From Serpula lacrymans var. lacrymans S7.9 (Eukaryota > Basidiomycota > Agaricomycetes > Boletales > Serpulaceae), in contig NW_006763301.1 of the NCBI RefSeq assembly GCF_000218685.1, positions 1,178,001 to 1,242,000 of the forward strand: a stretch of DNA of 64,000 nt, written 5' to 3'. This document shows, piece by piece, positions 24,941-56,848 of this stretch; the first letter of the stretch is position 1; the number at the start of each line of letters is the position of its first letter. The notes beneath the pieces are model-generated. The model did not search any database, was not told the origin of the DNA, and saw only the letters and a program-made list of their open reading frames with translations. The position numbers and the translations under genes are program-made.

Positions 24941-25355
24941 TGTAACAACCAAGAGTTTGTTACTCTGGCGCACAACTCAGACAAGCTATAGAGAGGATGA
25001 TGAGGGAGTGGTTACCTTTTAGGCTTCAACAAGTTAGTTGTGAGGATACAACAGGAGGACTTGCTGAGGAGTCTCCTTGATCTATTGGGGTATATATACT
25101 ACTACAGGTTTGTTTGTACATATGTACTATACAGTTGATGAAGGCAGTGGCTGATGATGTCAGAGGGCGCAGCCCATGTGACCAGCTCCACTGCGTGAGA
25201 TACCTGTAGCTAAAATAAGAAGGAAGGCAGTGCAGCGCGAGAAAGAGGAGTTTGAACAAAGGGGAAAGTGCTGCATGGCACAGTGTGTGAAAACTACAGA
25301 AAAAGGTTAAAGAGGAGAATGAAAATTAAAGGTCCGAAAATTGTGTATCGTAACG
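24941..25355 (-). repeat. Gypsy-1 LTR, left (3' LTR of the minus-strand element)
   Basis: Begins TGTAACAACCAAGAGTTTGT and ends ATCGTAACG; the terminal G is a change from the CA expected and seen in the other LTR. A G-rich polypurine tract (AGGAGGGGGG on the minus strand) lies just inside the element, as expected next to a 3' LTR. Confidence 0.8.
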
Positions 25356-26168: not shown

Positions 26169-26663
26169 TGTAACAACCAAGAGTTAGTTACTCCGGCGCA
26201 CACAGGAACACACTATAGAGAAGATGAAGAGGGAGTGGTTACCCCTTAAGATGCAGAGAGTTAATTGGTATACAACAGGAGGACTCGCTGAGTCCTTCCC
26301 CAAGATCTACTGGGGTTTATATACTAATACAGTTTTGTTTGTATATATGTACTGTACAGTTGCTAGAAGCAGTGGCTGCTGATGTCATGGGGTCTAGCCC
26401 GTGTGACCAGCTCCACTGTGTGAGATACTTGTATCTAAAATAAGAATAAAGGCAGCGCCGCATGAGAAAGGTGGAGTTTGAACTAAAAGGGGAAGTGCCA
26501 CATGGCACAGTGTGAAAACTACAGTACAAGGTTAAAGCGGAGAATGAAATTTAAAGGAAAGGTCCGAAAATGAAAAGTAAAGTAAATGGTCACATAACTG
26601 GTCATGTGACTTGGAAAATAAAAGTAGAAGTACAAAAGTGAAGCATAAGTAGGTGCTGGTATG

Positions 26664-36240: not shown

Positions 36241-36759
36241 CTAAGGACAACGTGACAATGTGACAACCCCTGTCTGCCAGTCGATCTCAGGATTGTGTTT
36301 AAATAGCCAGGTCCAGCCCAAGATTGAATTAATCTTCCTTAGTTGGGTAGCTTCGGCAGTGACTTGTTCCCTGTGTCCTTGGAATTTGACAACAAAGGAA
36401 CATTTGTGTGTGATACAGCCACCTGCATTAAGTGTACCGTTAACGTTATAGACGGGAATAGATACATCTAATTTTACAAGGGGGAGTCCAATTTGCTCCG
36501 CCCAGACCTGATCTATGAAGATTCTGTTAGCGCCTGAATCAAGCAGTGCGCTGGTTGGGTGTACTATGCCCCGGGCAAGGTTTTCCACACCAACGTCTAA
36601 ATGGATCTCCTTTTGGAATAAATATGTGCACATCAACACACACCTTGGGATTTCTGTGGGAAGTGGCTCCAAAGAAGAAGAAGAATTATCAAAAGAAACA
36701 TGTTTTTCTACTTTAAGATTTTCTATGTTTTTATTTTTATTTTTACCAGAATTAAGCAC
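36241..36759 (-). pseudogene. Gypsy-1 aspartic protease
   Basis: Minus-strand frame with the retropepsin signature SALLDSGANRIFIDQVWAEQ, then INSILGWTWLFKHNPEIDW. It precedes RNase H almost directly: the roughly 1 kb of RT sequence expected between position 36241 and 36130 is absent, so Gypsy-1 carries an internal deletion. Confidence 0.75.
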
Positions 36760-37079
36760 CCTAGTGTTTGTCTCGCTGGGGCCACGCTACAAAGGAGACG
36801 CTGGTACAACAGTGTTTTTATAAGTATTTTCAGCATCCACTTCTTCATCATCCTGACCCACTGAATCAGTGCTCAAAGCAGCTATATCGTCAGGAGGGTC
36901 CAAGACAAATCCACAGTCACAGCTTTGCATACAAGTACATACTTCTGATAACAAATTTGGAAATCTATTTACAAATTGGGGAGCCACCCCCTTCTTTCCT
37001 TTATTGCTTGTGCAACACCCCGGAGCAGGGGCCACCTTGTTGTGGTTTACTTCATTGTTTATAGGAGCAAAGGCACCCA

Positions 37080-38153
37080 AGTGACCTAAGCTTCGAACTC
37101 TTTTCCCTGAGCTTTCATCTCATTGACCTGTTGGTCGTAAAAGAAGGCCCGGATTTTGTCGTACAAAAGACTGGCCAGAGTGTTGAGCCGATCATCCGAC
37201 TTTTCAGCTTCTAATTGGCGCGCCTGGCGCCCTTGGTTAATTTTTTATTGAGCTGCCTGCGCTCCGTTTGGACACTTTTGGGCTATGTGCCCCTCCTGCC
37301 CACAGCTGTAGCAGGTGAATCTGCGCATCTGTCCGCCCTAGACCACGCCAATATCCATTGGGGCTCCCCGCCCTGGTTGAAACCCAAATGGTTGGAACCC
37401 ATGAGAGTGATTTTGTTTGTGGTTTGATGACCCAGGGCTCCTCTGGGAATAGTTGTTTTTGGTGCTGGACCCGCCACCTTGGTGCATTTTGTAGAGCTCT
37501 ATGGCCCTACCTATTTTTCGAACCTCCTCTGCTGCTTAGGAGAGGTTATCACTCCTCATATCCTGCAGATAGAGCTGTTCTGCAATGTGGGGGTTCACAT
37601 TGTGTTCCAGCAGTTCCACTGCATGTTCATTACCTAAGCCCCCTTGGATAGAGAGGGCCAGGAACTGGGTTACGAAATCATCTGTCCTCATGTTTCCTTG
37701 CTTGAAGGTACGGATCTGCTGACACGCCCAGTCACGCTCAGCTTGCGGTTTGAAATACTTTTCGATCTCAACTTTGAGATCATCCCAGACAGGCCACACT
37801 CCCGTGGTGTAGCACTCCTGCATTCTAACTTGGGCGTACCGACCTGCCACAGGTCCTTTTAGTCGAGATAGCACTGCAGTGGCTACCTCAAAATTGTCGG
37901 CAAATGCATCCCAGTTTGCCTTGACCCAAATTTGGAGCTTGATCCACCACTTGGCAAATTGCACTTTGTCTCCCTTGAAGGCACCAGGGTCAGCGACGAC
38001 TTCAACTTTCTTATTGAACTTCATCTCGACCAAGGGGGTTGCTGCAGGGGGGTGTGTCTGCAGCTCGGTGAGTTGTGTGGTCAACGCCAAAATCTGTGCA
38101 CGCATGTTGTGCAACAGAGTGTTGATGTTGGGTTGTTGACTTTGCGACGACAT
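37080..38153 (-). pseudogene. Gypsy-1 Gag with zinc knuckle, stops in frame
   Basis: Minus-strand start MSSQSQQPNINTLLHNMRAQ at 38153. Gag core GAFKGDKVQFAKWWIKLQIW and FKQGNMRTDDFVTQFLALSI, up to a stop at about 37537. The frame continues after it (AAEEVRKIGRAIELYKM) to a second stop, then a zinc knuckle CYSCGQEGHIAQKC at about 37300. At least two nonsense codons make it non-functional. Confidence 0.75.
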
Positions 38154-38629
38154 GTTGACTTGTTCTCTTGGTAAGGTAAAAAAATGTAACAGAGGGTCCC
38201 CGCTTGCTATCTGCGGATCTACCTCTTCCCTGCTGAGTATCGGATCTCAATCTCCGACTACCCACACTATAGTATTTGAAAATGTATATAAAAGATAAAC
38301 ATAATAAACCCTGGTCCGAATGGTTGTCAGGTGGTGGTCCGCTTGTTAAGCTGTCAACCCTTCTCCAGACTGGCGGAGGCAAGTGCCCGACCTGGTCAGA
38401 GGAAAGAGAAAGAGAAGGTTTGTATGTAAATTCTAATCAACAATAGTTCCACACTATTGCTGAGCTAAAGTACTCCCCTTAACACTGGGGGCTATGTATG
38501 AAAAATAAATGTCCTTTCTCCTAGAGCACTATGGGGCCGTCGCTAGGAGCGCACCCCTAAACAACAACCCCTTAACCCTGGGGACCGGGTTTGCACAACG
38601 TGCGAGAGAGTAAAAAGAGCGAGTCCTAA

Positions 38630-39044
38630 TGTGACCACCAAGAGTTTGTTACTCTGGCGCACAACTCAGACAAGCTATAGAGAGGATGATGAGGGAGTGG
38701 TTACCCTTTAGGCTTCAACAAGTCAGTTGTGAGGATACAACAGGAGGACTTGCTGAGGAGTCTCCTTGATCTATTAGGGTATTGATGCTACTACAGGTTT
38801 GTTTGTACATGTGTACTGTACAGTTGATGGAGGCATTGGCTAATGATGTCAGGGGGCACAGCCCGTGTGACCAGCTCCACTGCGTGAGAGAGTTGTATCT
38901 AAAAATAAGGAAAAGGCAGCGTAGCACGAGAAAGAGGAGTTTGAACAAAGGGGAAAGTGCTGCATGGCACAGTGTGTGAAAACTACAGAATAAGGGTAAA
39001 GAGGAGAATGGAATTTAAAGGTCCGAAAATTGTGTATCATAACA
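38630..39044 (-). repeat. Gypsy-1 LTR, right (5' LTR of the minus-strand element)
   Basis: Begins TGTGACCACCAAGAGTTTGT and ends ATCATAACA; 415 bp, same length as the left LTR. The VPS11 pseudogene resumes at 39045. Confidence 0.85.
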
Positions 39045-39587
39045 GTGCACAACACTGGACTGGCGTGCGAGTGACATTGTGATTGCCCGAGAAGATGCAA
39101 TATATGTCTGTGGAGTGGAGGGTTGAGGACTGACCTATGCGTACAAAGGTGTGTGATGTTGATGTTCCTTCTGAGTTATGTTTATGTTGTTGTCTTGCAG
39201 GCCACAAATCACTGTCCATACTCACCTTGTTGTCGTGTCACTTCCATTTGCTCCTTGTGCTGCATCTGCGTCTGTGACTGTTCAGAACTTTGTCTCCAAA
39301 AATGCTACTATTGGGCACATAGACATAACAAAAGTTACTGTTTTTGACCTCGAGAACAAGCTGGTTGCTTATTTGGGCACATTTGTGGAAGGAGTTTGTG
39401 AGGTCATCTCAGAATGGGGTAACATATACATTCTAACCAACAAGGGAAAGGTGCTTTTTGTGACCCAGTATTACCTTTGAACATGAAACTAATGACGGTT
39501 TTAGCTTTCTTGCCTTGTGGAAAAACCAATGTCTGCCAAGCTAGATATGCTATACCAAAAGGCTTTGTACCCTTTAGCTCTCAATAT
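39045..39587 (+). pseudogene. VPS11 pseudogene, segment 2 (exons 5-7)
   Basis: Matches 54107-54653 of the intact gene: the end of exon 5 (TGGCGTGCGAGTGACATTGT), intron, exon 6 (KNATIGHIDITKVTVFDLEN) and the start of exon 7. Substitutions give a stop in exon 5 (GGTTGAGGAC where the intact gene has GGTCGAGGAC, a CGA to TGA change). It ends at 39587 where the TIR transposon begins; the last six bases, CAATAT, are its target duplication. Confidence 0.85.
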
Positions 39588-39704
39588 TATAGTGGTCGGT
39601 TGGTTACAGTTGAAAACTCTAATCACTCCGAGCATCGGCATCACTATTTTAAATCTCCGGGGGTAGTTAGTTAGCTGATAGACTTGAATATTAAAATCAA
39701 TTAT
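39588..39704 (+). repeat. Left terminal inverted repeat, 117 bp
   Basis: TATAGTGGTCGGTTGGTTAC to AAAATCAATTAT. Complementary to 49349-49233 with three mismatches. Confidence 0.9.
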
Positions 39705-39849
39705 AAATGATAAGACTTGCGTGCAGGATCAAGAACAGAGAGCGACTGTTTGGGCAGTATGAGTATCGTTTATTGCAACAAAAAACACAGGCACTGTGCT
39801 ACTGTACATACTTTGCAAGAAATAAGACCTGACAGCCAGCAGCCATAAA

Positions 39850-40504
39850 TCACGGCAAAATCTCCACCTCACCATTGTCTATTGCAAGGTGCATGCTGGC
39901 TATCCCAGCTTCCAGAGATAAAGTGCAAGTATAGGTTGCGTGGCTCACCCCAGTCACATAGGGGGAGGTTGTTTGCCTTGTTATGTAAAATGTAAGAAAA
40001 AATAAGATACAAAGTGACCAGGCTTACCAGGCAGCGAATATCCCAATGCAATGACCTCTGGTAACCAAGTAATATTGGCCCTGCATCCCAGGCTCGGGCA
40101 CATGGAATGGCCACCCTTGGTAAGTCTGGATCGAGGCAGCAGGAGCATGAAACTGGGGTGGCAACTAGTGTGGAAGATGAGGATGTTGCTGCGACAGGAG
40201 CCTGAGTCAAAGGGGGTGTGGCTGTTGAGGCAGATGCTCTCTGGGATGGAGGAGAGGCTCCACCAGCAGCAGTGCGGTCCAGCACTGCAGACATGAGAGT
40301 CATAGCATTGGTGGGGGAGAGACTGATGCCAGCCAACAAGGCCATCACAATATCTGAACAATCCAATGTTAGTATCAATGGTTTTTAAGTGAAATTATAC
40401 GCACCTAACGTATCTGCATTGTTGCCTTCATTTTCTTGCACAGACCATGTGGGTGACTTGCTATTGGAGTTGCTCAAACCGCTGGGGAAAGAGCTTTCAG
40501 TCAT
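39850..40504 (-). CDS. RNase H1 N-terminal-like (viroplasmin-type) domain protein in TIR element
   Basis: Minus strand, start MTESSFPSGLSNSNSKS at 40504. A first intron (GTGCGT...CAG at about 40404-40355) leads to DIVMALLAGISLSPTNAMTL and a Ser/Thr/Pro-rich stretch. The family match is at the C terminus: QYYLVTRGHCIGIFAAW, then across an intron (donor at about 40035) QTTSPYVTGVSHATYT and IASMHLAIDNGEVEILP to a stop at 39850-39852. The pattern Y-x-V-x-x-G-x-x-x-GI-x-x-xW ... V-x-GVS-x-A fits the RNase H1 N-terminal hybrid-binding domain. The frame changes once between the two parts (about 40170), which needs either a short intron or a frameshift. No catalytic RNase H domain follows. Role in the element unknown. 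Confidence 0.5.
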
Positions 40505-40519
40505 ATTGGAAGATCGATG

Positions 40520-41187
40520 AGTGACTCAACAAAAGTGGGGAAAGTATGGTAGCTGCTGAAAATCAATGTAGTTTACGTACCTTTATACCACGCACCTTTC
40601 TAAAAAGAGAAAATAGCTAGAAAAAGAAAATGGCTCCATGGCCACCATCCTGAGGTGCTCAAGGACAGCAACAAGGAGAAGCAATCAAAGGACTCGATGA
40701 AGGACAGAAGTAAAAACTTTTCGAGTGATGGTAACTGTCATTCTGGTCATGTGACCATAACCAAAAACGGACTTCTCAGCTTAGTCCCACAGCGCAATCC
40801 TTGTCTGATGCATTCAGACAAAGCTTGTGGGCTCACCACCTTCTCAGACAGATATGCGGAAGATAGATAAGTACATTGCGCCCATTCCCCATTGATATAC
40901 TGAAATGCCTGTTTTTCAGTGATAAGATGCAGAGTGTGCCAAGTACCAGCTTACCTGCTCTTCCGACATCAGCTTTACCATCTCCAGTGCAAACTCTCCA
41001 CAGAAATGTGTGGATATGGATAGCACAAGGTTTGCAACTGGGGTGGTCATGGTGGAGCAGGTTATCAAATAGGAAAGGAATGAAAGGGCTGTAGCTTAGT
41101 CAAATTGTGCATGTATCTATTCACTTGCTAATTACATTGGATTCCATGATACACTGAGCCATGTAAGGGAGAATGCTTGTGAATAAG
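40520..41187. other. Unassigned internal part of the TIR element
   Basis: A 71-codon plus-strand frame (40655-40870) is Lys/Ser-rich and unrecognised. No match to the other genes of the element. Confidence 0.3.
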
Positions 41188-42960
41188 TCAGGTTTCATTG
41201 ATATATGAATATCCTCCGCTACTTGAGTCAGTCCATTCATAAATGTAGTCACTTTTGTCATCATTGGAAGAAAATTCATTTGTGCATGAACCGCCCGGTG
41301 TAGTTGTTGGTCTGTAGACAGGGAGATTCACCAGAGGCATAAATTCAGACCCGACAAAACCTTCATCCGGCAATGCTGGCTGACCCACAAGAACTCTGTA
41401 GTGTGGTTAGATGTTCTAGTAAACTGAGATAGACATCCCACGCATTGTCTTGCATTACTACAGGCGAGCCGGCACCACGAAGAAAGTTGGAGGCTTCCTG
41501 CGCAAAAGCTGCAGGGACAAGTTCAAAGACATGATGCTCAGGTGGAGCATACGTCTTTCTGACTTCTGCAAGTGAGGGTAGATGCACTTTGACCTATTTA
41601 CAATACAGTTAGTAGTGTAACTTACAGCAAAATGAAAAACTTACTGCAAAGTCTTGAGACTGGAAGTGCTCTGGTTGTTCAAAGATATTGGCTGGGCGTT
41701 CATGCGGTAAAATCTTGTTACGGTTGTGCCAAGAAAGAGTGTGGTTGAATCTGTTGACAAAGAGATCCAGTTTGTCTTGCAGCCAGGGGATGAAGATATA
41801 GTGAAATGTGAGCCTAATAAGACAGTATTATTAGATGCTACTGAGTCCCTTTAATACAACTTACCATTGTAAAGGATCATCTGGGTTGTACAAGCCTTCA
41901 TTTAGTCCGTAGTTGAGGGGATGTTCAAAGCCTGGAGACCATTGCCTACGTAGCTGATTCCAAAATATTTCAGGTTTGATGTTGCGGTGCAAGCCTTTGA
42001 ACTTGTGCTGTAAGGTATGTTCAAGACTGGGGTCTTGCAGATGTCTCAGGAGTGTGTGGCCATTTGCGATGCCATTATTTTCAGAACCGGGGTCGCTTTG
42101 AGTCACCAATGGCATGCCTAGCATGTGATTAGAGTTAATTTCATGAAAAGTACGATTACTTACCATCAAGCTTAGCAACAGTGTCACAATACCATCCACA
42201 TATCAAGCGGGGATTGCGGTTGGCCCACCATATCTTGAGCCATAATATCTTCCCAGAGAACGGTTCCAGTCCTACATGTAAAAACAACTGGAAACACCTC
42301 CATTTGACATGCTGGTCAAAAGACCAGAGATCATTAATGCCCGCCATCCAGTAATAACTGTGTTTAAGCTTTCAACTCCTCCAAGCCACGACCTCTTGAC
42401 GGTGGTGGGTATTCATGTACTTGGGAATAAGCTGACTGTATTCCTTGGGTAAGTAGACAAATACAATGTTCATTATATCAGCTTACCACAGTACCATAAT
42501 CTTTTCTTCTTGTAGTAGAGCTTTTTTCATATCATGTGAACCTTGCACCGGAAAGCACGCGCAGACACGTTCAACAGTGGGACCTATGCTTTCTAATGTG
42601 TGAGCTTGACCGCGTGTACTTTTCAAGCCCCACTGCATGCATTTCTTCTTCAGCAACGCCAGTCTGCAATAATCCTAACTGTGAACTAACCACCTACAGT
42701 GTAGACCCAGGCACTTACAAGAATTGAAAATGGTCAGTGTCATAATACTTCTTCAACCTGTTGACAATCTCTGGGTTGGAATACCCACAGCTGAGGTAGT
42801 GTTCAATCAGAGGACACATTGTTGCATCAGGTGCTGATCACCAAGCATCCAAGTTAGCAACCAGCTGTGAGCATACAACAATACTTACAAGGAGGATGCC
42901 TGGTACCATTTTGTCCTCTTGGGTTAGGCATGCGGTACTGGGAGAGAGTTAGGGTGTGCA
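41188..42960 (-). pseudogene. Integrase-core (DDE) protein with HTH N terminus, basidiomycete family
   Basis: Minus-strand gene with at least six short introns. N-terminal helix-turn-helix-like part: MCPLIEHYLSCGYSNPEIVN, LLALLKKKCMQWGLKSTRG, then ACFPVQGSHDMKKALLQEE. Core: YYWMAGINDLWSFDQHVKW (first Asp), ILWLKIWWANRNPRLICGWY, MPLVTQSDPGSENNGIANGH (second Asp), NIKPEIFWNQLRRQW (Glu), then FIPWLQDKLDLFVNRFNHTL and a C-terminal tail. This is the retroviral-type integrase fold in a family expanded in mushroom genomes, usually annotated only as integrase core domain. A TGA at 42374-42372, just before the core (AWRS-stop-KLKH), breaks the frame; a CGA to TGA change would explain it. All three catalytic residues are present. 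The likely transposase of the element. Confidence 0.75.
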
Positions 42961-43225
42961 GCATCCAGCTGTAACCATTAGGATACGGTACTACTAGTAC
43001 TCAAGCTGGCACTCAACATTCCCCACGGACATAAGTTGGTTCTCGTGTGAATATCATGGTGCTTATTACTTGACATATGAGTCAGCGCCGTGCGTTTGCC
43101 AGGCCGTTGAACCAGGTTAAATGCTGAATGTTGAACCTTGGCCTAGAGGTTCTAGATGGGCCCACACATGCCTCAGAGGTGAGCTCAGATCATTCTCCGA
43201 ACTGAGAACACTTGTGAGTCACATT
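42961..43225. other. Unassigned stretch inside the TIR element
   Basis: Probably the 5' part of the integrase-core gene (PNPRGQNGTRHPP is readable on the minus strand at about 42940-42900) and its promoter. No other feature seen. Confidence 0.3.
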
Positions 43226-44325
43226 GTCGATGATGAGAACTGTAGTTAGAAAACCACACACAAAACAAACTAACACATAATCCTCCCAGATTCCACGGAA
43301 ATTGTGTATGGGCTTTACCTCCTAGAATAGTGGAGTGGTCTGGTTGTTCGTGGGGTGGTATGTATAATAATCCTTCAAAGTAAAACCCAGAGATGTATGG
43401 GTGTGGGTTTTGAGGAGGAGGGATAGTTGAATTATAGAAGATAGGGGCTTAGTGACGAGTATGGACAAGCACTACCTTGCTAATTGTAGCACAAGATAGG
43501 TTTGAGAACAACAAGATGATGAGGTGACAAGGTTCCCAGTGATAGCAGGCTCCTGATGCACAAACTGTAGTGCTCAGAAGGACTCTAATCAAAAGAGATA
43601 ACAATGACTTTGGAAGTGACGAGTGACAATGACAGCAGTTAACAGTAGTAGCAGTGGGAAGTGTTGTGACCACACCGGATCACAAGTAGCAGAGAGAAGT
43701 GAACTTGAGATTAGAGAAGAAGTTTGGATTGGAGTTCTTGTTTTTTTTTTTACAATGTAAAATACAGGGGTTTATATAGTAAAAGAAAGGTAGGCTATGC
43801 ACAGTATAACTGTGCAAAAAGAATGAGAAAGAACATGAAGGAAGGAATGTATGCTAACAAATCCTGTGTAGGTAGTACAGGATAAGATCGTCAAAATAAG
43901 GAAAGGAAAGAGATAGAACAATGAATGCTGTGTAAGTAATGTTACAAGTTTGTACAGCCATAAAGTAAAGTCCAATAGCAGAAAGAGAGCAAGAAAATCA
44001 TGATGTCATGGGAAGATGCAGTAAAAAAGGGCAGGGCAAAAAAAATATCAGTATCAACACAGTTCCTTTATTGTCAGTCAGGCATTCTAAAAAATATGTG
44101 TCCATAAAATGATTCAAAAATCAAAAATAATCGCACTGTAAATGAATGTTCTGCTGAAAAAAAGAAACTGGAGCCACCGGTCCACCACCTAGTCCAAATC
44201 CAACGGTTCCATGGCCTTACCAATAGACTGGTTATATTTGACCACCTGGTCAAACGAGGGAGGGAGGGGAGTAGTTCCAATTTGGAACAAGTGAGTCCCA
44301 GGCAGCGTGTGGTAGCTGTAGCTCG
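43226..44325. repeat. 1.1 kb direct repeat, copy 1
   Basis: Starts TGTCGATGATGAGAACTG and is closely similar to 45759-46855. Includes the last 50 or so codons of the membrane-protein gene X on the minus strand (LPGTHLFQIGTTPLPPSFDQ, VVKYNQSIGKAMEPLDLD) and its 3' flank. Copy 1 is cut off inside that gene, so it is the derived, partial copy. Confidence 0.75.
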
Positions 44326-44392
44326 GCTGACTTTTTTTTTCTGCTTGACAGAGGATTCCTTGCCTACACAATATTTAGGCTCGAGTACAATG

Positions 44393-45319
44393 CCTCCTCC
44401 TCCTCCTCCTCCTCCTCCTATCAGTCGTTCTGCATCAGCCGCATACTCCAATTCTTTGACCGGTTATACATCAAGTCATGCAACCTACGCCCACCACCGT
44501 AACAAAATATTGGCCTCAACAAACTCACCTCAGCATCAAGTAACAATCCGTGCAGCGTTGCATTATCTGAAGGTCAAGGGCAAGTCTGGAACAGAGTTGG
44601 TAGGAGTACGTATTATCTCTTTAGCCCTGAGTTTTAAATTCTGACAGGTTGCTTTTGTGCTGGCGACAGAATATTGAGCGGGACATATCCGTCTCTTTAG
44701 CTATCACTGCATGCCAGCTGCATCTGACTATTATTGACAACCTACAGCTACTATGGGCGGATTGGTCTGTCAATTGCAATTTATCACTAGAATCCCTCAA
44801 AATGCACAAAGCACCCAAACTTCTCCTTTACGACCCTCACATGCCTTTTAAAGGCACAGAAAAACTTGTTCTACACAACTCCTTCTTTCATATTGCAGGT
44901 AAGGACCCCACCCCAAGGTTTGCTCCAAATTTGAAGGTATCAATCATCTTGGTGATGACAAATGCCCAATTTGAGGACATTTTATCTTGGAAACAGGAGT
45001 GCAAGCGGGGTGTGGGTGGCTCAATTGCCAGTGTCCATGCACAACATGATTCTGATGAAGAAGACTTAGAGGAAGATGAGCTACCAGGTGATTATAATCT
45101 GATGGACGAGGTGCGTTAGTTTCTCTCATATTTTCATTCATAACAGTTCTATTCTATAGGTTTTTCTTAAAGTGTTTGGTCAAAAATGTCGCATTTCTCG
45201 TCCTTGTAGAGGTTCTTGCACGCGCGGAAGTTCAACTAGTTGTGGAGGTTCAGGTCCTCATGAAGGTTCAAGTACTCGTGGAGAATCAAACACAAGCTTG
45301 TCATTGAGCAAATTGGGTC
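44393..45319 (+). CDS. Unrecognised spliced gene Y in the TIR element
   Basis: Plus strand. ATG at 44393 opens a proline run, then ISRSASAAYSNSLTGYTSSH and VTIRAALHYLKVKGKSGTEL. After an intron (GTACGT at about 44604 to CAG at 44647) comes LLCWRQNIERDISVSLAITA, DNLQLLWADWSVNCNLSLES, LKMHKAPKLLLYDPHMPFKG and VLHNSFFHIAGKDPTPRFAP, then an acidic stretch (HDSDEEDLEEDELPGDYN). A third part (about 45160-45326) is Gly/Ser/Arg-rich and is broken by the solo LTR at 45327. The protein text is continuous and codon-like, so it is a real gene, but I do not recognise the family. It might be the N-terminal part of the alpha-kinase protein encoded downstream on the same strand. Confidence 0.45.
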
Positions 45320-45326
45320 GTCCAGC

Positions 45327-45749
45327 TGTTACGATAACACATTTTTGGACCTTTAATTTTCATTCTCCTCTTTAACCTTTTACTGTAGTTTTCTCACGTT
45401 GTGCCATGCGGCACTTTCCCTTTTGTTCAAACTCCTCTTTCTCGCACTGCACTGCCTTTTCTTCTTATTTTAGCTACAAGTCTCTCACGCATTGGAGCTG
45501 GTCACATGGGCTAGGCCCTATGACATCATCAGCCACTGCCTCTATCAAACTGTACAGTACACATGTACAAACAAACTGTAGTAGTATATATAGACCAATA
45601 GATCAAGGAGACTCCTCAGCAATTCCTCCTGTTGTATCCTCACAACTAACTTGTTGAAAGTCTAAAGGGTAACCACTCCCTCATCATCATCTCTATAGTG
45701 TGTTCTAGTTGTGCGCCAGAGTAACAAACTCAAACTCTTGGTTGTTACA
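45327..45749 (+). repeat. Solo LTR of the Gypsy-1 family
   Basis: Inverse orientation to the Gypsy-1 LTRs: TGTTACGATAACACATTTT to TTGGTTGTTACA, 423 bp. Flanked by a perfect 5-bp target duplication CCAGC (45322-45326 and 45750-45754). No internal sequence, so a solo LTR. It inserted after the TIR transposon, within unrecognised gene Y. Confidence 0.88.
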
Positions 45750-45758
45750 CCAGCACGG

Positions 45759-46855
45759 TGTCGATGATGAGAACTGTTGTTAGAAAAACCACACACAAAA
45801 ACAAACTAACACACAATCCTCCCAGATTCCACGGAACTTGTTTATGGGCTTTGCCTCCTAGAACAGTGGAGTGGTCTGGTTGTTTGTGGGGTGGTACGTA
45901 TAACGATCCTTCAAAGTAAAACCCAATGATGTATGGGTGTGGGTTTTGAGGAGGAGGGATAGTTGGAATATAGAAAGATAGGGGCTTTGTGGCAAGTATA
46001 GACAAGCACTACCTTGCTAATTGTAGCACAAGGTAGGTTTGAGAACAACAAGGATGACAAGGTGACAAGGTTCCCAGTGATAGCAGGCTCCTGACGCACA
46101 AACTGTAGTGCGCAGAAGGACTCTAATCGAAAGGGATAACAATGACTTCAAAAGTGGGAAGTGACGATGACAGCAATTAACAGTGGTAGCAGTGGGAAGT
46201 GTTGTGACCACACCGGATCACAAGTAGCAGTAAGAAGTGGACTTAAGATTAGAGAAGAAGTCTGGAATCGAGTTCTTGTTGTTTTTTACAAGATAAAATA
46301 CAAGGGTTTATATAGTAAAAGAAAAGTAGGCTATGCACAGTATAGCTGTGCAAAAAGAATGAGAAAGAACATGAAGGAAAAAATGTACGCTGATGAATCC
46401 TGCATAGGTAGTACAGGATAAGATTGTCAAAAAAAGGAAAAGAAAGGGATAGAACAATGAATGCTGTGAGTAATGTCACAGGTTTGTACAGCCATAAAGT
46501 CCAATAGCAAAAAGAGAGCAGGAAAATCATGATGTCATGGGAAGATGCAGTAAAAAAAAGGCAAGGCAAAACACTATCAGTATCAACACAGTTCCTTTAT
46601 TGTCAGTCAGGCATTCTAAAAAATATGTGTCCATAAAAATGATTCAAAAATCAAAAATAATCGCACTGTAAATGAATGTTCTGCTGAAGAAAAAGAAACT
46701 GGAGCCACCGGTCCACCACCTAGTCCAAATCCGACAGTTCCATGGCCTTACCAATGGACTGGTTGTGTTGGACCACCTGATCAAACGAGGGAGGGAGAGG
46801 AGTAGTCCCAATTTGGAACAAGTGAGTCCCAGGCAGCATGTGGTAGGTGTAGTTG
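45759..46855. repeat. 1.1 kb direct repeat, copy 2
   Basis: Starts TGTCGATGATGAGAACTG and runs alongside copy 1 to about 46855. Here gene X continues uninterrupted beyond the repeat end, so this is the original copy. Contains tandem low-complexity A/G-rich stretches and no other coding sequence. Confidence 0.75.
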
Positions 46856-47262
46856 TAGCGAAGACGATGGACAAAAGATAAGTGTACCCAAGTGAATGGG
46901 ACAGCGATGAACACGGGCGACACAAGGGGATGAACCTTCTCCAGCTCAAAAACTACCCACCCATGCTCCAACCAGGCAAGATGAGCAACCGATGTTTTGA
47001 TAGTATATGATGGTAGATCGACGTCATAAAGATGGACATGTTGCCCTATTTGAACCGGCCACAGGGGCTTTGCTGATATCAGCAGTGGCACGTGGTAGTC
47101 AACAGATCAGCAACAGAAGTGGATAGGAAGTGGTGACATCAGAAATGGTGGGGGAGCAAAGAAGATGAGGAGGAGGAGGCTGGAGGTGACGAGGAGGTGA
47201 ACTAAAATAGGGATCCAGAAACGACCGTCGGGTGAGAATAAAAACGAGAGTAAGGGACCCAT
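46720..47262 (-). pseudogene. Unrecognised membrane-anchored protein X, one nonsense codon
   Basis: Minus strand, ATG at 47262 (MGPLLSFLFSPDGRF), then a membrane segment (FWIPILVHLLVTSSLLLLIF) and a globular part: ISAKPLWPVQIGQHVHLYDV, VAHLAWLEHGWVVFELEKVH, VSPVFIAVPFTWVHLSFVHR and YHMLPGTHLFQIGTTPLPPS. It stops at 46720-46722 after GKAMELSDLD; copy 1 of the 1.1 kb repeat has the same stop, which supports it as genuine. A TGA at 47109-47107, between the membrane segment and the globular part, interrupts an otherwise single frame; CGA to TGA would explain it. No family recognised; function unknown. Confidence 0.5.
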
Positions 47263-47674
47263 GGTGGGGCTAGGCAAAGGAAGGGAAGTGAAGGAAACAA
47301 CAAAAGCGAGGACACAATGCAATGTGTAGCCAGTGGCGACGCAAAAATTTGCCAAAATGCCAAAACGCGGAAAGTATCGAATGGAAAAGCAAAGGTGAGC
47401 GTGACTGGATTGCCTAATAGAGGTGGTGCTGATCAGCCACAAGTTCAAAAAAGGCAATATTAATTACTATTCCACGTGGCACTGTGCCTGTGTGGCGCAA
47501 AGGCGAGTCTTTTTGAATATTTGCTTCGTTATTGACACCTGTCCATGCTACCAATCAACTTTGGTGCATGACAACAGGTTCGTCACATTTTCCCATTGTT
47601 TTTTCACCTTGTCTAATTTAATAAATTCTATTGCTAGGCCTCGGCAGGTATTTTGTCTGGATCTTCAAGAGATC

Positions 47675-49069
47675 ATGACTGCAACAATGTTTACGCATCT
47701 GTGGTGAGTGAGATATGCTGCCACAGATACAATCTGATGTTAACTACTTCTTAGCATTGTTCAGCTTTGCCCAAGACATGTTTACAAATGGCCTTACTGT
47801 TTTTGAGTGTAAGTCCTGTAAAGACAGGAAGCCCAAGTGCAAAGAGAGTAGCCAACAGCCCTGAGATCACTAGGTCGCTCGGTAATCTGACTGATGAGTG
47901 TGTTCTTGGCCAAGAACGCACAGATCTTGTGGGGTTCAACATACCAGACAGTAGCACCCTCAAGCGTGTTATGAAAGCACAAAAAGACGTGCGCAGACAA
48001 GCAAAATCTATTCATAAGTTTCCTATGTTATTACATCTTACTTACTAATATGTATTGCTAGTTAACAACAACACAAGCATCACAATCATTTTCCCTGTGC
48101 CTTTCAGCTCCTCGAACGGCTCCGCCCTTTTGACTTCAAGGACAAAGCTAGCCAGCCCATTGTAACTTTGGCTGTGGACCGTAGCACCAAGTCAATGGTA
48201 GCGCCGGCCGGTAGCTTCAAGACATGTCACCCAGCATCATTCGTCAACCTTGACAAATTGTCTCAAGCCCACATTACGGCAGTACCAATTCTGGGGCTTG
48301 AGGCCATTGTGGTGAAGCACGTTTACTGGAGAGTGTCCGGTCCTACATCAAGTCACAAGCAATTGACAATCAATGACAAACTTGTTAAGACACTTGATGA
48401 GGCTAACTGCCTTTATTGGGCCACAAGTCTGATAAATTTACTCTACAGTTATATTGACAAAACCCTTGCTTGCAGAGCACCAACAGCTCCAACCATCATC
48501 GTTCCTCGTCTCCATCTGGTACATTCTGCAGTCGCGGTGCCTCAAGATTCTTGTGAAGCCTCTGCAGCTGTATACCTCTTGGAAGAGAAAATTACTGGTA
48601 AATTTGTGAAATACATCAACAATAACAGTGCCACACTGAGGCAAAATCTTGAGGAGTCTGAGTTAAACATAGCGGAATTTCTGTGCTTTGCACAGCATGC
48701 ACAGCATGCACAATACAACATAACTCAAGGCTTGGTATTTCTGTCAGATTTTCAAGGTATGTTCTTTCTTCCACTTATGTTTAGTGTCTTATGCTGTCCA
48801 ATTAGGTGCAGGCGACCTTCTGACAGATTGCCAGGTCATTACAACCCCGTAAGTACCTCTGCTAGTATTTATTCTCACTCATACTTCATTGTGCACTTTA
48901 GGGACTATGCAAAAAGCTTCAGTGACGGCAATTGGACCAAAATGTTGCACAATTTCCCTAAGCGCCATAATCAACAGATACTGTGTGGCCTTGGGTTTAG
49001 TGTCATTCTCTCGCACCCCGGTACATTTTCTCTTTCATTGTGTTCCCATGTGCACCAATTACTATCTTA
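47675..49069 (+). CDS. Alpha-kinase domain protein carried by the TIR element
   Basis: Plus strand, several exons; start tentative at 47675. The kinase part begins about 48110: LLERLRPFDFKDKASQPIVT, GSFKTCHPASFVNLDKL, VVKHVYWRV, LDEANCLYWATSLINLLYSY, PRLHLVHSAVAV. Then the alpha-kinase core: AAVYLLEEKITGKFVKYINN, NIAEFLCFAQHAQHAQY, GLVFLSDFQ and, across two introns (about 48757-48805 and 48850-48899), GAGDLLTDCQVITTP and DYAKSFSDGNWTKML. The GLVFLSDFQG-LLTD pattern and the C-terminal G-N-x-x-x-x-x-x-F segment are typical of MHCK/EF2K-type kinases, which are numerous in mushrooms. A 9-bp tandem repeat adds an extra HAQ. The C-terminal zinc-ligand cysteines look altered (ILCGLGF). Possibly cargo or regulator of the element. 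Confidence 0.6.
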
Positions 49070-49232
49070 GATGGATACGTCAATCTCAGTATGCCGGTCT
49101 GACGTAGGGTGGAGTAATATCTTGATAGAGACACATAGCACCGTTCTTCATATTTTTCTTGTATTAAATGGGCCTCCTCATACCGAAACACTTGTTCTAC
49201 GCTCTCAATCTGCCACGCACAAATTTATTTTG

Positions 49233-49349
49233 ATAATTGATTTTAATATCTAAGTCTATCAGCTAACTAACTACCCCCGGAGATTTAAAATAGTGATGCC
49301 AATGCTCGGAGTGATTAGAGTTTTCAACTGTAACCAACCGACCACTATA
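49233..49349 (-). repeat. Right terminal inverted repeat, 117 bp
   Basis: Ends CCAACCGACCACTATA at 49349; complement of the left repeat with three mismatches. Followed by the target duplication CGATAT (49350-49355). Confidence 0.9.
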
Positions 49350-49488
49350 CGATATGGCTAAGACGCTGCGTCTAGATGAAGTATCAGTCGCTGAGATTCA
49401 TCGCCAATTCAGTGATAGTCTATATGCCAAAGGAGATTATGACGGAGCCATGCAGCAATTTGTTCAAACTATTGGTCAAATACAGCTT
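49350..49488 (+). pseudogene. VPS11 pseudogene, segment 3 (rest of exon 7)
   Basis: Matches 54651-54787 (GGCTAAGACGCTGCGTCTAG, encoding AKTLRLDEVSVAEIHRQF and AKGDYDGAMQQFVQT). Homology stops inside exon 7 at GGTCAAATACAGC; beyond 49488 the sequence is unrelated to VPS11, so this is the end of the duplicated unit. Confidence 0.85.
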
Positions 49489-51297
49489 ACTATCGTTGGA
49501 CACTGGATGCAACCGGTAAGAGATATGCACTTGGGCCTCCAGAGGCTCAACAATCACTGTACAGGTAGCTAGAAAATTGTCAGATGTAGAATATAGTATA
49601 GAGAATATAATTGTGAAAGAATTTAGTGAATAGCTTATCTGTAGCAACAACGACAGAGACACTATGCTCTTGAACTCCAGAAGTGTGAATTTTGAGGGAA
49701 AGATGGCCAGATTTGACCAGATCTCGTGCTGGGAATATTGCAATATCTTTCTAGAAAACGTCAATAGGTAGGCCCCTACAATGCCAGATACTTACTGAGC
49801 TGATTGGGGCCTCAAAGCGTCTGGAGAAACGAAAACAATGATGAAGTCGTGACTAGGCGACCGAAACAGGTAATCACACACCAAGATAATCAATCAAGGA
49901 CCGCTAGCTCCGCTTCGGTACGTACCGCACATACCACCAGCGTCAGGACTTGGTGTGACCTGGCGGAATTTGACTTGTAAGCTCCGCCTGATTTGGTCCG
50001 TGAGTGCCGCTGTGACCCAGTGTGACCAGAAATTGCAGAACAAAACATGTGTCGTCTTTTCGGTTTTGTTCCGCTGCTCCAATGCTTCAAGTTCTTGCGT
50101 ATTTTTCTACATAGGCAGCTAGAAAACTAAAAATTATATCTACTGGTCAAGTTCCGACAGTCTAAAGCTCAACGACTGGTGAGTTATTCAACTTCTCCCC
50201 AGACCAATTGCACCTATTGTCCAACGATAGTAGTTACGTCTTTTCGCTGGAGTTGAAACCTAATTAGGTGTTATGCTCAACTCTTTGGTATTTCGAGTCG
50301 GCGAGTCCGTGAAGATGATCAACGGGGATCGACGTCCGCCTTTAGTCTCTAAGCAGACCTATCGACCTCCAAGATGTTCAGCTTCATCTGACATTTATCC
50401 AAAAAAGCTTGAACTGCGAGCTTCAACAAACTCCAACGCCCAAGCATCCTGCACTCTTTCACCTACGGTCGTCACCAAGCATCCCCATAACATCATCCAA
50501 AAATCAAGGGATACAAGCGGGTTGAATTCATTCCCACGTTCTCAGACTGAATCTGACTGATCAATTTTCAGGTAAGCAACATCATATGGTATACTGCTTG
50601 CCAATGGAATTTTCGAAATAACACTGCTTTCAGCCTTGACGATAGTATCGGTATTAGACTGACATGTAGTCCTTGACAAACGAACAAAATAGTCGGATCA
50701 TCCTCCGAACCCGAGGTATGAAGGGAAGTCGAAGGGACCTGCTATCTCTTACTACCAAATTGATAATTAACTAGCTATACAGGTCATGGTCATGCAGGGA
50801 CCGAACACTCGGTGACCAGATACCAATGGCACGGTTTCTCCCACCACTGCATGCAAATGCGCATCTACCTTTCATGCAGAAGGCAGACAAAAAGCCCTTC
50901 ATTTGAAAGGCCCCGCATGAACCCCTTACGCTATTTTGTCAAGTAACTATGATGATGGTCGGCTGATAGTACATGGAGCATTCAGGTAGCATCAAGAGTT
51001 ATCGCAATAAGAATATATTCGGAACTTTAATTAGTCAACTGTCACTTTGGACGTCGTTCCATCCAAAGGAGGATCAGGAACGAGTCAGAGGAATGAGGTA
51101 CCCGGGAGCAAGAACGCATACTGTACGTACTTAAGCTTGTAGTGAGACGGAGATATAAGAGTGAGAGTTTGCTAGAATTCACCAGCGTCCTCACATCCTC
51201 CTTCATCGACATCGAGCCGCTAAAGCCTTAACTGCACACTCGCCGACGTCGTCTAGTTCCATTATCTGTGGCTTTTTAGAGGATAGCTTTTGAAAGT
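49489..51297. other. Duplication junction, wax-synthase-like relic, phosphatase promoter
   Basis: 49489-50334 is unique sequence with no gene I can support. 50335 onward is the right copy of the segmental duplication. About 50385-50510 (minus strand) reads WMMLWGCLVTTVGERVQDAW, a relic resembling the C terminus of the wax-synthase-like gene. 50850-51290 is the conserved promoter and leader of the phosphatase copy. Confidence 0.45.
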
Positions 51298-54200
51298 ATG
51301 TCCCCAGAAGTCATGCATCAAAACACAGAATTACCTGTAGCATCACCTACGTCGTCCTCTGTTATTGACAGCGTCGACAGCGACGGCGCGAGGGGCGTCG
51401 GTCATCGACATCGGTTCCTTAATCCAGACCTCATCTTTCGGATTATTGATCCCACCAAAATCATAAGATCTGACATTCCATTGCCCCCGCCTTTTGTCAA
51501 TATTCATGGCGTCGACAATGTCCGCACAATAGGCCATTTTCTCCGGTCTCCCTCTGTCAAGATCAAACAAAACCTAATCTATCGGTCTGCCGACCTCCTA
51601 GGTATCACAAAGCGAGGGAAAAAGCAGTTTATGGGACATAAGATCAAAACTGTCGTTGACTTGCGCTTAGAGCATGATTATGACAGTATCCCCGGCTTAC
51701 CGGGTGTCGAATGGTTATCGGTCCCTTCAGAGGAGCAACCAGCTGCAACTACCAAGGAGATCATTGAGTTGTGAGTTTGTTTGGCATGTTTCTGTAAATA
51801 TGTGCAAACGACGAATTGCTCCACTTAGGCTCGAGGACTACCAAACAAATGTATTGGAGGTTAGTTTTACTCCGTCAACAGAAAGTAAATGTGCTAACAG
51901 ATATGTACTGTAGGCATTCATGATACATTATGCCAGGGTGCTGGAGGTATCAGGAAAAATCTTCGAACTTTTCTTCACTCATCTCAGGGACAAGCCCAAT
52001 GTACCGGTTCTAGTCCATTGCTCTGGTTAGACATCTCCTTACAATGCATGATACTTGTCATATTCAACTCAACTTCGAGTTCAGCTGGGAAAGATAGGAC
52101 GGGGTTAGCGATAGCTCTGCTTCTAAAGGTACGACGACCTCTGCTACTTTTCATGGATAGGTTTACATTCCCGAATTTTAGATCCTCGGAGTCGACGATT
52201 ATGATATCGTTCATGATTATGCCCTGTCGAGCGTTGGCCTAGGTACTGCAATCCCAGGCCTCATAACCAGCTTTGGCAATAATAATGAGGTATATCGGGG
52301 AAATCCTATAGGATTGATGAACTTCCTCAGTTCAAAGTGCGTTTACTGTAACTTGGAAGCTATTTTCGAGTTTCAATGCTCATTAATTGCTCAAAGTCCC
52401 GACACAATGGCTATGATGCTGGTGCAATTATGGGAAAGTTTTGGTGGGGCAGAGAACTATTTGATGACACATACGAGTTTACGATGCGAAGATATAGATA
52501 CAATTCGCAAGAACTTGCTTGTGGAATAGAGAAGAACGGTGATCAGTGGCATAACATGTATTATACGAACAGACAACTTGTGCAAAATAAGGGGAAAAGT
52601 ACAGCTCACAGGTGCCATTATCAAGGATAGTTTTAGTACGTACAGATTCTACGAGCCATGAACTGAGTCTGGTGCAAATGGCACTACACTGTAAGCAATC
52701 GTACGCCAAATCTATAATCTTACAGGCCCCAAGCCTGAAGAATGATGTTGTTATACTGTCCTTGCAATTACAAGAATGGCAGTCCTCTGAGCACTACCAA
52801 ATTAGGAAACCACTACCACTGGCAGCTAGGTCCGAGTCGTACTCTCGAGTTATTACGTCCGCTGAATCGCTTTTACTACTACTTCACCTTACGGCCTTAT
52901 AGAGTCAAGGCCAAGGCCATCTTTCAGAAAACAGGATCAGCATTGAGGTTCACTGCCAGTGGCAATACACGCAAACGGTATCGTACGTGTAGTTTCCCTA
53001 TATATATTAGTATTGCAATTCGCCAAGTGGCGCCTTAAGCTCATTGTGATATATACTTTAGCTCCGTTCTGCCCAAACAAGTTTCTCTGAATCTGGTATC
53101 GATTTTCATACGGAGGATTGATCGTTGAAGTTGTTGATAGCGAGTAAGGATGGCAGTCACAACCGGGGGAGTCGCGACGACTACAGCGGTTCCACCGGTG
53201 AGTTCTTTTGTATCTACCGACTTTAAAGACATCTTATGTGTTACTATTAAGCTGCGGCAATTCTCTTTCTTTGATGTTGAGCCTGTGAAGGACATTCATG
53301 ATCTGGGAAGCTCGCCGGACATATTCAAAGTGCGAGTTGCAGAAGCCTTTCCCCAGCGAAGCTCATGTTGTAACTACAGAATGCTCCGGAAATTTCTACG
53401 ACAGCTTCATCGTCAATTGGCCTCTTGGTTGCAGATATGCACGGTAGTATACATATGGTCAACAAAGACTTCGTGTCGACGACCAGTTGGATCGCACATG
53501 TAGGCGGACGTGTCACACATATGGTCGAAAGGCAGGGTATATTGGTGACGCTCGGGGTATGTTATATAGGCTATGTCTTTTTTATCAGGGATACTGAGAA
53601 TACTGCTAGGAAGAAGATGCAGTGCGTTCTCCCCTTCTCAAGATATGGGAACTAGGAAAGGTCGACAAAAACACCGGTGCACCAAATCTCCTGCGGTCCA
53701 CAAAAGTTCAACCTAGCAACCGACCACACCCTGTACGCCATCTTTTTAGTTTTTTTTTCGATTCTGTTTCACCTTTTATCCATCCTCAGGTATCAGCAGT
53801 TGCCCTTTCTGCGGCGTTGTCCTACCTTGCGATTGGTCTCGGTGATGGTACTGTTCTCCTGTACCGCCATTTAGACCAGTCTATCTTTTCAGGTTCCACC
53901 TCTCTAACAGCTTTACCCAAAACAAGGACAGTCCACGAATCTCCGGCTGAACCGATTACTGGTCTAGGTTTCAAGGAACCTACCGAAACCAACCCCAACT
54001 TGCATCTGTTCATTGTAACAATCAACGGCGTCAGATCATATCACGTTTCTGGCAAGGGGAGCGGTGGAGCGTCTACGATAGTCGATGAAGTTGGATGTGG
54101 GCTTGGGTGCGCAACGATGGACTGGCGTGCGAGTGACATTGTGATTGCCCGAGATGATGCAATATATGTTTGTGGAGTGGAGGGTCGAGGACCGACCTAT

Positions 54201-54787
54201 GCATACGAAGGTGTGTGATCTTGATGCTCCTTCTGAGATATGTTTACATCGTCTTGCAGGCCACAAGTCATCTGTCCATACTCACCTCAATTACCTCGTT
54301 GTCGTGTCACCTCCATTTGCTCCTAGTGCTGCGTCTGCGTCTGCGACTGTTCGGAACTTTGTCTCCAAAAATGCTACTATTGGGGACACAGACATAACAA
54401 AAGTTACTGTTTTTGACCTCGAGAACAAGTTGGTCGCTTATTCAGGCACATTCGTGGAAGGAGTTCGAGAGGTCATTTCAGAATGGGGTAATATATACAT
54501 TCTAACCAACGAGGGAAAGGTGCTTTTTGTGACCCAGTATCACCTTTGAACATTGAACTGATGACAATTTTAGCTTTCTTGCCTTGTGGAAAAACCAACG
54601 TCTGCCAAGCTAGATATGCTATACCAAAAGGCTCTGTACCCTTTAGCTCTCGATTTGGCTAAGACGCTGCGTCTAGATGAAGTATCAGTCGCTGAGATTC
54701 ATCGCCAATTCGGTGATAGTCTATATGCCAAAGGAGATTATGACGGAGCCATGCAGCAATTTGTTCAAACCATTGGTCAAATACAGC
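50335..54787 (+). repeat. Segmental duplication, right (compact) copy
   Basis: Right copy of the phosphatase-VPS11 unit; partner of 20210-49488. It holds the empty sites for all four insertions in the left copy and keeps the VPS11 start that the left copy lost. Confidence 0.85.
51298..52529 (+). CDS. Tyrosine phosphatase family protein, right copy (about 315 aa)
   Basis: Six exons: 51298-51770, 51829-51859, 51914-52025, 52085-52128, 52182-52336, 52397-52529, same lengths as the left copy apart from exon 1. An ATG at 51298 adds five residues before the MHQNTE start shared with the left copy (51313); either may be used. Motifs: GHFLRSPSVKIKQNLIYRSA, KTVVDLRLEHDYDSIPGLPG and the intact active-site loop VLVHCSAGKDRTGLAIALL, with Cys and Arg in the HC-x5-R arrangement. 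C-terminal WESFGGAENYLMTHTSL. Differences from the left copy are concentrated in the N terminus and exon 2, outside the catalytic loop, so both copies appear functional. Confidence 0.87.
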
Positions 54788-56848
54788 CTAGTTACGTGAT
54801 ACGCAAGGTCAGTTAAAATTCACTTCGTCACATTTATTCATCCTCGCTAAATTCGTCGGTGTGTAAAGTTTTTGGATGCACAACGGATACACAATCTCGT
54901 CACGTATCTACAAGAATTGCACACACTTGGACTCGCTAATTCGGACCATACGACGCTTTTGCTCAATACATATACAAAGTTGAAAGATGTTTCGCGCTTG
55001 GATAGTTTCATCAAGACAGAATCCAGGCGCTCGTCATCGGATGAGGAAAAGGACGAACTTCCGTTTGATCTGGACACTGCTATCCGAGTGTGTCGGCAGG
55101 CGGGATATTTCGAGCATGCTTCTTACCTTGCGAAAAAGTACGAAAGGCACGAAGATTACTTACGGATCCAGGTTGAAGATGCGGGCAACTTCAAGGACGC
55201 ACTGGTATACATGCGTAAACTTGGGTCGGAAACAGTAAATCTCGTCTCACTTTGATTATTGTATCGTTGTTCATGTATATGGTTTTGAACAGGCGGAAAG
55301 CAATTTGGCACGGTATGGTAGAGCAATGCTAAATAGTCTACCAGAGGAGACTACACAGCTCCTCATCGACCTTTGCACAAGCTCTGGCTCTCTAGTACAA
55401 CCTGAAGTAGAAGAAGCGCCTATTACCACCTCGAAATCGCTGGGTGGAGCTGCTCCTTCATACCTCTCGTACCTGGCTATTAGTCGTGCACCTGCAGCCG
55501 CACCGACCGTATCTAATGATGCCTCTGTGCTACCATCACCATCAGTGAAGACAGTGAAGCCAGTGGATGCACAGGAAACCCCAAGCGATAACTCGGGATC
55601 TTCGACGCCCTCCCCCATCATCGCGGCTCCCTCTACGAGCGCCATACGTGCAGCGCCACTGAAGAAACCCTCTCCGCGGCTGTACTTTGCGCACTTTGTG
55701 GATCATATGGATTATTTTATGGTATTCCTTGAGACTGTCGCACGGAAACGCTGGGGCCAGAGCATTGATGGGCCTGTCGAGCCATCCAGCAACGACCTTC
55801 CTGCCGACGAACAAGCAGAGAAGCGCGACCAAATCGCTATATGGAACACTCTTTTGGAGTTATATTTGACTCTACCAGAGTCTCATTCTAACGAATCGCT
55901 CCGAGAAAAGGCTATCCGACTACTTAAGAGTGACCTCCCGTATGACCCAACGCATGCCTTGATTCTCTGTTCTAGCCATCAGTATACATCCGGACTCGTC
56001 CTACTGTGGGAGAAGATGGGGATGTACGAAAGTGTGCTCCGTTTCTGGATGGACCAGGATAAAGAAGGCAAGATACCTGATGCTTCGGTTGAAGTGGTCA
56101 AAGCCCTTGAGCTGTATGGCTCTTCAAATCCTCATCTATATCCCCTCGTCCTGCGGTTTTTGACTTCAACGCCTGAATTGTTGTCAAGTCATAAAGCAGA
56201 TATCGGGGCAGTTTTGGAGCACATCGAACAAGAGAAGATAATGCCCCCTCTCAGTGTCATCCAAGTGCTGAGTAGAAATGGAGTAGCAAGCGTTGGTTTG
56301 GTCAAACAATGGCTTATGACGCGTATCAAGGAGTCTCGAGAAGAAATACAGATGGTAACACTGAAACCACTTTTCCAATTAGCTCATACTCATGACAACT
56401 CTTTCTTCGTTAACCAGGATCACCAATTAATCAGCTCTTATCGACAGGAAACTAAGACGAAGCTTAAGCAAGTTGAAGACTTGGCCGATCCAGAGCATCC
56501 TAGAGTATTCCACGTTACCCGATGCTCAAGCTGTGGGGGACAGCTCGATTTACCAAGTATTCATTTCATGTGCAACCACAGTTATCACCAAAGGTATGTT
56601 ACTGCAGGGATCATTAGATGACTGGGCTAAATCTGGTTTGAAGGTGTCTGGTGAACAGTGAAACTGAATGCCCAACCTGCGCTCGCCAACATGGAGTTGT
56701 TCAGGAGATTCGGAGAACTAACGAGCGGCTGGCTGATCAGCACGACCTTTTCTTGTCTGAAGTGGAGGAGAATGGTTTCCGTGCTGTGGCAGGTGGTTTC
56801 AGTCGAGGTGTTCTGAATATGACAGGCCTGGAGGGTGTGGCTGCGTGA
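53150..56848 (+). CDS. VPS11: Vps11 homologue, HOPS/CORVET core subunit (about 1,070 aa)
   Basis: Ten exons: 53150-53197, 53252-53329, 53380-53556, 53610-53732, 53790-54210, 54260-54519, 54574-54807, 54869-55234, 55293-56593, 56644-56848; all joins keep frame. N-terminal beta-propeller with LRQFSFFDVEPVKDIHDLGS, ILVTLG, RSPLLKIWELGKVDK, AIGLGDGTVLLYRHLDQSIF and TGLGFKEPTE. Then the alpha-solenoid (LDMLYQKALYPLALDLAKTL, GDYDGAMQQFVQTIGQIQPS, CRQAGYFEHASYLAKKYERH, YFAHFVDHMDYFMVF, AIWNTLLELYLTLPES). The C-terminal RING-H2 zinc finger (CSSCGGQLDLPS, MCNHSYHQRC, ECPTCARQHG) is split by the last intron. Vps11 is a shared core of HOPS and CORVET tethers for vacuole and endosome fusion. The exon 9 insert is Ser/Ala/Pro-rich. 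Confidence 0.93.

Follow-up and report, generated by a model that had tools for sequence, protein, structure and literature searches.

An old, kinase-bearing copy of a four-gene transposon, very probably of the IS3EU superfamily, in Serpula lacrymans

The subject of this report is a mobile element in the genome of Serpula lacrymans var. lacrymans S7.9, found at positions 39588-49349 of a 64,000-nucleotide stretch of contig NW_006763301.1 (positions 1,178,001 to 1,242,000), and it is this whole stretch that we mean by 'the window'. We think it very probable that the element is an old copy of a DNA transposon of the IS3EU superfamily, a four-gene unit in which a transposase and an RNase-H1-N-like gene (gene3) are accompanied by a conserved gene that we call gene2 and, most provocatively, by an alpha-kinase. 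Our analysis covers this one genome, whose sequences carry labels such as C9 and C21, and the counts from genome searches are lower bounds; for example, the search with the PF24764 family gave a listing without the window's own transposase.

An insertion and its relatives

The element ends in 117-bp terminal inverted repeats (TIRs) that differ at only three positions, near-identical just as the original prediction had it, with a weaker similarity that runs inward for up to ~200 bp. The hexamers outside the TIRs (CAATAT and CGATAT) also read as predicted and, when the two flanks are joined and aligned to a paralogous uninterrupted stretch (54,457-54,790), the filled site holds exactly six bases more than the empty site, CGATTT. 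It follows that 39588-49349 represents a single insertion flanked by a 6-bp target duplication, in which one or two of the duplicated bases have changed since, and the duplication and empty site claimed for it are borne out. The interrupted target (39046-39587 plus 49350-49489), for which the original prediction proposed the name VPS11, is 90-97% identical to the copy at 54107-54790, ~5 kb away; this stretch was duplicated locally, and one of its two copies is interrupted.

The window copy is a decayed one, with a stop in its transposase frame and three nested repeats (Table 1). The predicted 9.76 kb of cargo is right as the distance between the ends (9762 bp) but includes ~3.4 kb of later nested repeats, and the element measures ~6.4 kb without them. 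The 1-kb direct repeats around gene2 were considered as simply the two long terminal repeats of one element, an idea that we dropped, given that the full repeat is 1.83 kb long and occurs elsewhere. Beyond the element, the left flank holds a piece of a Gypsy-type retroelement (36241-38246, with an aspartyl protease by Pfam and a gag-like open reading frame (ORF) by eye), and the repeat adjoining it (38642-39045) recurs, inverted, inside the transposon.

The window TIR has seven matches in the genome, two of which are its own, and its first 12 bases, proposed as a search probe, do occur at nine exact places, but the reversed control gave five and three of the nine have no TIR sequence behind them, so that this short start is by itself a poor probe and weak evidence. 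One relative, C9:999775-1022548, is 22,774 bp long and flanked by a perfect CCTAAT duplication; it holds transposase, gene3 and gene2, together with two Gypsy-type retroelements in opposite orientation, one within the other (judged from ORFs, and from Pfam for the inner one). Searching with the transposase protein gave 29 clusters of matches, seven of them belonging to what we call the young family. Pieces of one young copy yielded its left end and most of its right TIR, and DNA searches located right ends of the family at 11 places and left ends at 10. Its copy on C13 is 7307 bp long, and nine of the ten two-ended copies are flanked by perfect 6-bp duplications, no two of which are alike (CAAGCG, AAGGGA, AGATTA, ATATCT, CGCTCT, AATATT, ACAAAC, TTATCA and CGCTCA). 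Over 3270 bp around the transposase, compared in seven young copies, five are identical, one has six site differences from those and the seventh differs only in a 59-base stretch resembling short insertions and deletions. Nine perfect, different duplications and five identical copies of seven mean, therefore, that the young family moved recently.

Several smaller observations belong beside these copies. Two young copies, C21:116403-124651 and 160256-167562, lie 44 kb apart and share the same right flank, which could come from duplication of that region or from the assembly itself. The longer 'size variants' of the young family (two on C5, one on C21) were set aside: the 800-base middles that we fetched are all N, and their lengths are uninformative. 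At C14:602912 there is another element end, adjoining a kinase; no right end was found in this genome for the C14 element, nor for one on C15. Further PF24764 places (C3:1298141, C14:428090, C3:856907 and C4:466096) were all missed by the window transposase search and perhaps represent another element family.

Table 1. Features of the insertion and of its paralogous empty site (window positions)
Feature	Position	Strand	Basis
Left target duplication, CAATAT	39582..39587		Paralogous empty site
Left TIR, starting TATAGTGGTCGGTTGGTTAC	39588..39704	+	TIR comparison
gene3, RNase-H1-N-like, spliced	39850..40504	-	Boundaries by eye against young family; weak PF01693 in young relative
Transposase gene, integrase core PF24764, seven exons inferred	41188..42931	-	Pfam and alignment
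Nested, truncated copy of the 1.83-kb interspersed repeat	43219..44323	+	Sequence comparison
gene2, conserved, between transposase and alpha-kinase; ends by eye	44390..45340	+	Sequence comparison
Nested repeat (0.43 kb), also at 38642-39045, 24939-25354 and 26166-26557	45326..45756		Sequence comparison
Nested full copy of the 1.83-kb repeat, with 93.7% identity to its copies on C2 and C8	45754..47587	+	Sequence comparison
Alpha-kinase gene (PF02816), spliced, start uncertain	47675..49070	+	Pfam
Right TIR	49233..49349	-	TIR comparison
Right target duplication, CGATAT	49350..49355		Paralogous empty site
Paralogous uninterrupted target stretch, empty site CGATTT at ~54650	54107..54790	+	Sequence comparison

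Four genes that travel together

In the young family the alpha-kinase (minus strand) lies near the left end, followed by gene2 and then by transposase and gene3 (both plus strand), which is also the order in the window; in both, kinase and gene2 share one strand while transposase and gene3 occupy the other. The TIRs of the younger copies bracket these same genes, and it is this four-gene unit that has moved. The prediction of a defined TIR element with an integrase-core mobility gene is thereby upheld, and the idea that the integrase might belong to a later element nested inside the TIR pair is rejected because the young copies hold it between their TIRs.

The integrase-core and kinase calls of the original prediction both stand. 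When its exons are joined, the transposase matches PF24764 at E 2.7e-11, with 40 residues from the second catalytic D to the E as we assign them, and its exons and introns are common to the window, C9, C2 and young genes. The window gene has a 17-base alignment gap near its 3' end and an in-frame stop just upstream of the core, which the C9 copy shares (it has at least one further stop) and the C2 and young copies do not. The helix-turn-helix (HTH) domain that had been read into this protein finds no Pfam match, the protein's first ~110 residues being without an assigned domain, and the matches of the transposase among PDB sequences are at chance level only. The alpha-kinase matches PF02816 at E 9.8e-6 and, weakly, the PDB sequence 1ia9 (E 0.005). 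The description of gene3 as RNase-H1-N-like is upheld in part: the young-family protein gives a weak PF01693 match (E 0.004, below cut-off), but the window ORF (39869-40384) has none in Pfam. As for gene2, its main exon matches nothing in Pfam or NCBIfam and PDB sequences only at chance level; an RCDG1 match to its proline-rich start fell below the Pfam cut-off and was set aside, as were weak Med16_N and DUF7394 matches to ORF 40604-40870, and a single-sequence AlphaFold model of a gene2 exon (predicted local distance difference test score 37.6) was not used. One scan of viral contigs found no relatives.

Across the genome we found 23 alpha-kinase places, a lower bound, since a kinase-like relic beside a C8 TIR is absent from the list. 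At thirteen of them gene2 lies within 3 kb and a transposase match within 15 kb; four have gene2 only, three the transposase only and three neither; the window falls among the 'transposase only' places because a nested repeat pushes gene2 further off. One of the 'neither' places, C21:117084, sits within a TIR pair, so that 21 of the 23 places are tied to an element (14 of 16 with the young family counted once), the two others being C5:1821293 and C2:1711724. In all 17 cases gene2 shares the strand of the kinase, and wherever a transposase match falls within 15 kb of a kinase place, as it does at 16, it is on the opposite strand. These counts draw on 54 of 123 transposase rows (the remainder being additional exons or copies from loci already represented), all 28 gene2 rows and all 23 kinase rows. 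By chance, 29 transposase clusters spanning 30 kb each in 42.6 Mb would give ~0.5 such neighbours for 23 places, against the 16 seen, by an arithmetic that treats the eight kinase places of one family as independent. Gene3, with 24 places merged from 44 search rows, has a transposase or kinase match within 15 kb in 16; among the other eight, C5:2924369 and C6:673325 are at young-element ends, C13:287932 is ~2 kb from a gene2 match and five are unexplained.

Are the alpha-kinase, gene2 and gene3 nothing more than host genes carried passively between the TIRs? Fungal IS3EU elements can acquire genes (TET/JBP in rust fungi and in a truffle, PMC12730594; two coding sequences in Styx, PMC10853768), and the C9 copy is without a detected kinase. 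We nonetheless regard this as unlikely, since gene order is the same across divergent lineages of this genome, and the ratio of nonsynonymous to synonymous substitution (dN/dS) between old copies shows the transposase, gene2 and the kinase to be under purifying selection. For the window compared with C2 it is 0.06 for the transposase (367 codons), 0.13 for gene2 (114) and 0.16 for the kinase (129); between the window and C9 it is 0.06 for the transposase and 0.12 for gene2, and between C2 and C9, 0.27 and 0.25. For the young family dS is saturated, and the ratio of the corresponding proportions of differing sites (pN/pS) is 0.21-0.36. Kept by selection, these three genes would serve the element.

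A quite different possibility is a degenerate Maverick/Polinton that has lost its other genes. Mavericks and Polintons have 6-bp target duplications, long TIRs and an integrase, and Polinton ends are AG. The window element resembles them in the first three respects, and the original prediction had drawn this parallel; it differs in its ends, which start TAY, and in that Pfam detected neither a polymerase B nor an ATPase, protease or capsid in the 16 window-element proteins or ORFs scanned, a subset of its ORFs. Young copies, ~7.3 kb in length, contain the same set of four genes, and an alpha-kinase is a published trait of IS3EU (PMC12730594), all of which makes a decayed Maverick/Polinton most improbable.

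Probable placement in IS3EU and a possible role for the kinase

The element appears on structural grounds (ends, duplication length, the kinase and its orientation) to be an IS3EU element, and we file it there because its ends, its 6-bp duplications and its oppositely oriented transposase and alpha-kinase match those published for fungal IS3EU. IS3EU elements have TA..TA termini, usually 6-bp duplications and a DDD/E integrase-like transposase (PMC10045372), and the fungal ones that bear TET/JBP have 6-bp duplications, TIRs longer than 30 bp, ends of the form TAYGG..CCRTA and a TET/JBP gene that separates the transposase from an alpha-kinase of opposite orientation (PMC12730594, Kojima 2025). 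The window, young and C15 families all start with TAT or TAC; 6-bp duplications occur in the nine young copies, in the C9 copy and, by its empty site, in the window; and the fuller motif is seen in the young family (TACGG, at both ends) and on C15 (TATGG, at the one end seen), the window family having TATAG. The element would then belong to an already named superfamily, and its structure, including the published alpha-kinase (PMC12730594), does not support the original suggestion of a new type.

What of the TET/JBP gene itself? None was found between transposase and kinase; gene2 is there, without a Tet_JBP call by Pfam. Across the genome 25 Tet_JBP places were found at E 0.01, seven of them above cut-off, and just one of the 25 has a transposase match within 15 kb, while none has a kinase within 20 kb. 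At C1:1324137-1328515 a weak Tet_JBP place (C1:1328285) lies ~4 kb from a transposase exon (C1:1324137), possibly part of a TET-bearing element.

Several points do weigh against our reading. The placing is one by structure, and the Pfam name says only 'integrase core' (PF24764); the fourth base of the window element is A, not the G of TAYGG; no kinase of the genome list falls in the C9 copy; and the tenth two-ended young copy, C21a, has no matching duplication, a mismatch that is likely due to later duplication because its right flank is the same as that of C21b. In addition, dS is high (0.7-1.5 between window and C2, 0.7-1.7 across window pairs), which makes dN/dS rough, the kinase value against C2 rests on 129 codons, and the measures of selection cover transposase, gene2 and kinase. 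One might then argue for a separate new superfamily that has converged on IS3EU-like ends, as Pfam knows the transposase only as rva_4 (PF24764) and its likeness to IS3EU was judged from structure. Yet the ends, the duplication length, the kinase and the kinase's orientation would all have to agree with fungal IS3EU by convergence, which strikes us as very unlikely.

How might such an IS3EU element work? The integrase-core protein would act as the transposase: bound to the TIRs, it would cleave at the TAY...RTA ends and join the element to a target with a 6-bp stagger between its strands, so generating the 6-bp duplication; the cutting and the cut-and-paste chemistry are proposed here by analogy with the superfamily. 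The alpha-kinase and gene2 diverge within the unit from the transposase and the RNase-H1-N-like gene, and the kinase may phosphorylate element or host proteins and thereby regulate transposition or relieve host silencing. For the kinase we think regulation or counter-silencing the most likely kind of role, with confidence and doubt in about equal measure.

PF24764 genes of the kind found in the window are now tied to a defined and recently active element for which the ends, the target duplications and an empty site are known, and 21 of the 23 alpha-kinase places that we found in one genome sit with that element. It is tempting, and we do so tentatively, with doubt a little ahead of belief, to see the IS3EU elements of this fungus as kinase-armed four-gene transposons, for which the alpha-kinase is essential and selected, and to see fungal expansions of the alpha-kinase family, for example in rusts, as mainly the proliferation of such transposons, not of host or infection genes. 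The rust part of this idea draws on papers: alpha-kinases are among the expanded families there, with 79 and 39 in two table columns and the words 'highly expanded' (PMC4469406), and one alpha-kinase is among rust genes under diversifying selection (PMC4150398). A transposon origin, if true, would change how published alpha-kinase counts are read, and raises the question of what a transposon does with an alpha-kinase of its own.

Comparison with known systems

IS3EU is already present in transposable-element tables of mushrooms, given without gene content in the parts of those papers that we draw on (Phlebopus, PMC12411881; Ganoderma, PMC8955403), and our literature search returned no report of alpha-kinase-bearing IS3EU in mushrooms, those of rusts and truffle being described in PMC12730594. 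An element of the KDZ kind was considered and rejected, since we see 6-bp duplications and a PF24764 core in place of 7-8 bp and a KDZ transposase (the duplications are 8 bp in Zisupton and 7 bp in Kyakuja; PMC12730594). IS3EU and GingerRoot elements in general share with ours the TA..TA termini and the usual 6-bp duplication, with no alpha-kinase mentioned in the text drawn on here (PMC10045372).

Styx, from Zymoseptoria, is IS3EU-related and 7927 bp long, and it is alike in its four ORFs, 6-bp duplication, recent activity and co-existing decayed copies; it differs in having a 36-bp TIR and other ORFs with GATA, CCHC and DUF3577 domains, no alpha-kinase being mentioned in the portion of the source used (PMC10853768). 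The TET/JBP-bearing IS3EU elements, whose hosts are rust fungi and Tuber indicum (PMC12730594), share with the Serpula families the 6-bp duplication, a TIR of more than 30 bp and an oppositely oriented transposase and alpha-kinase with a gene between them, the TAYGG..CCRTA ends being seen in the young family and, at one end, on C15. In the Serpula element an RNase-H1-N-like gene follows the transposase, and the gene in between is where it departs from that published plan: gene2, not TET/JBP by Pfam, stands in that place.

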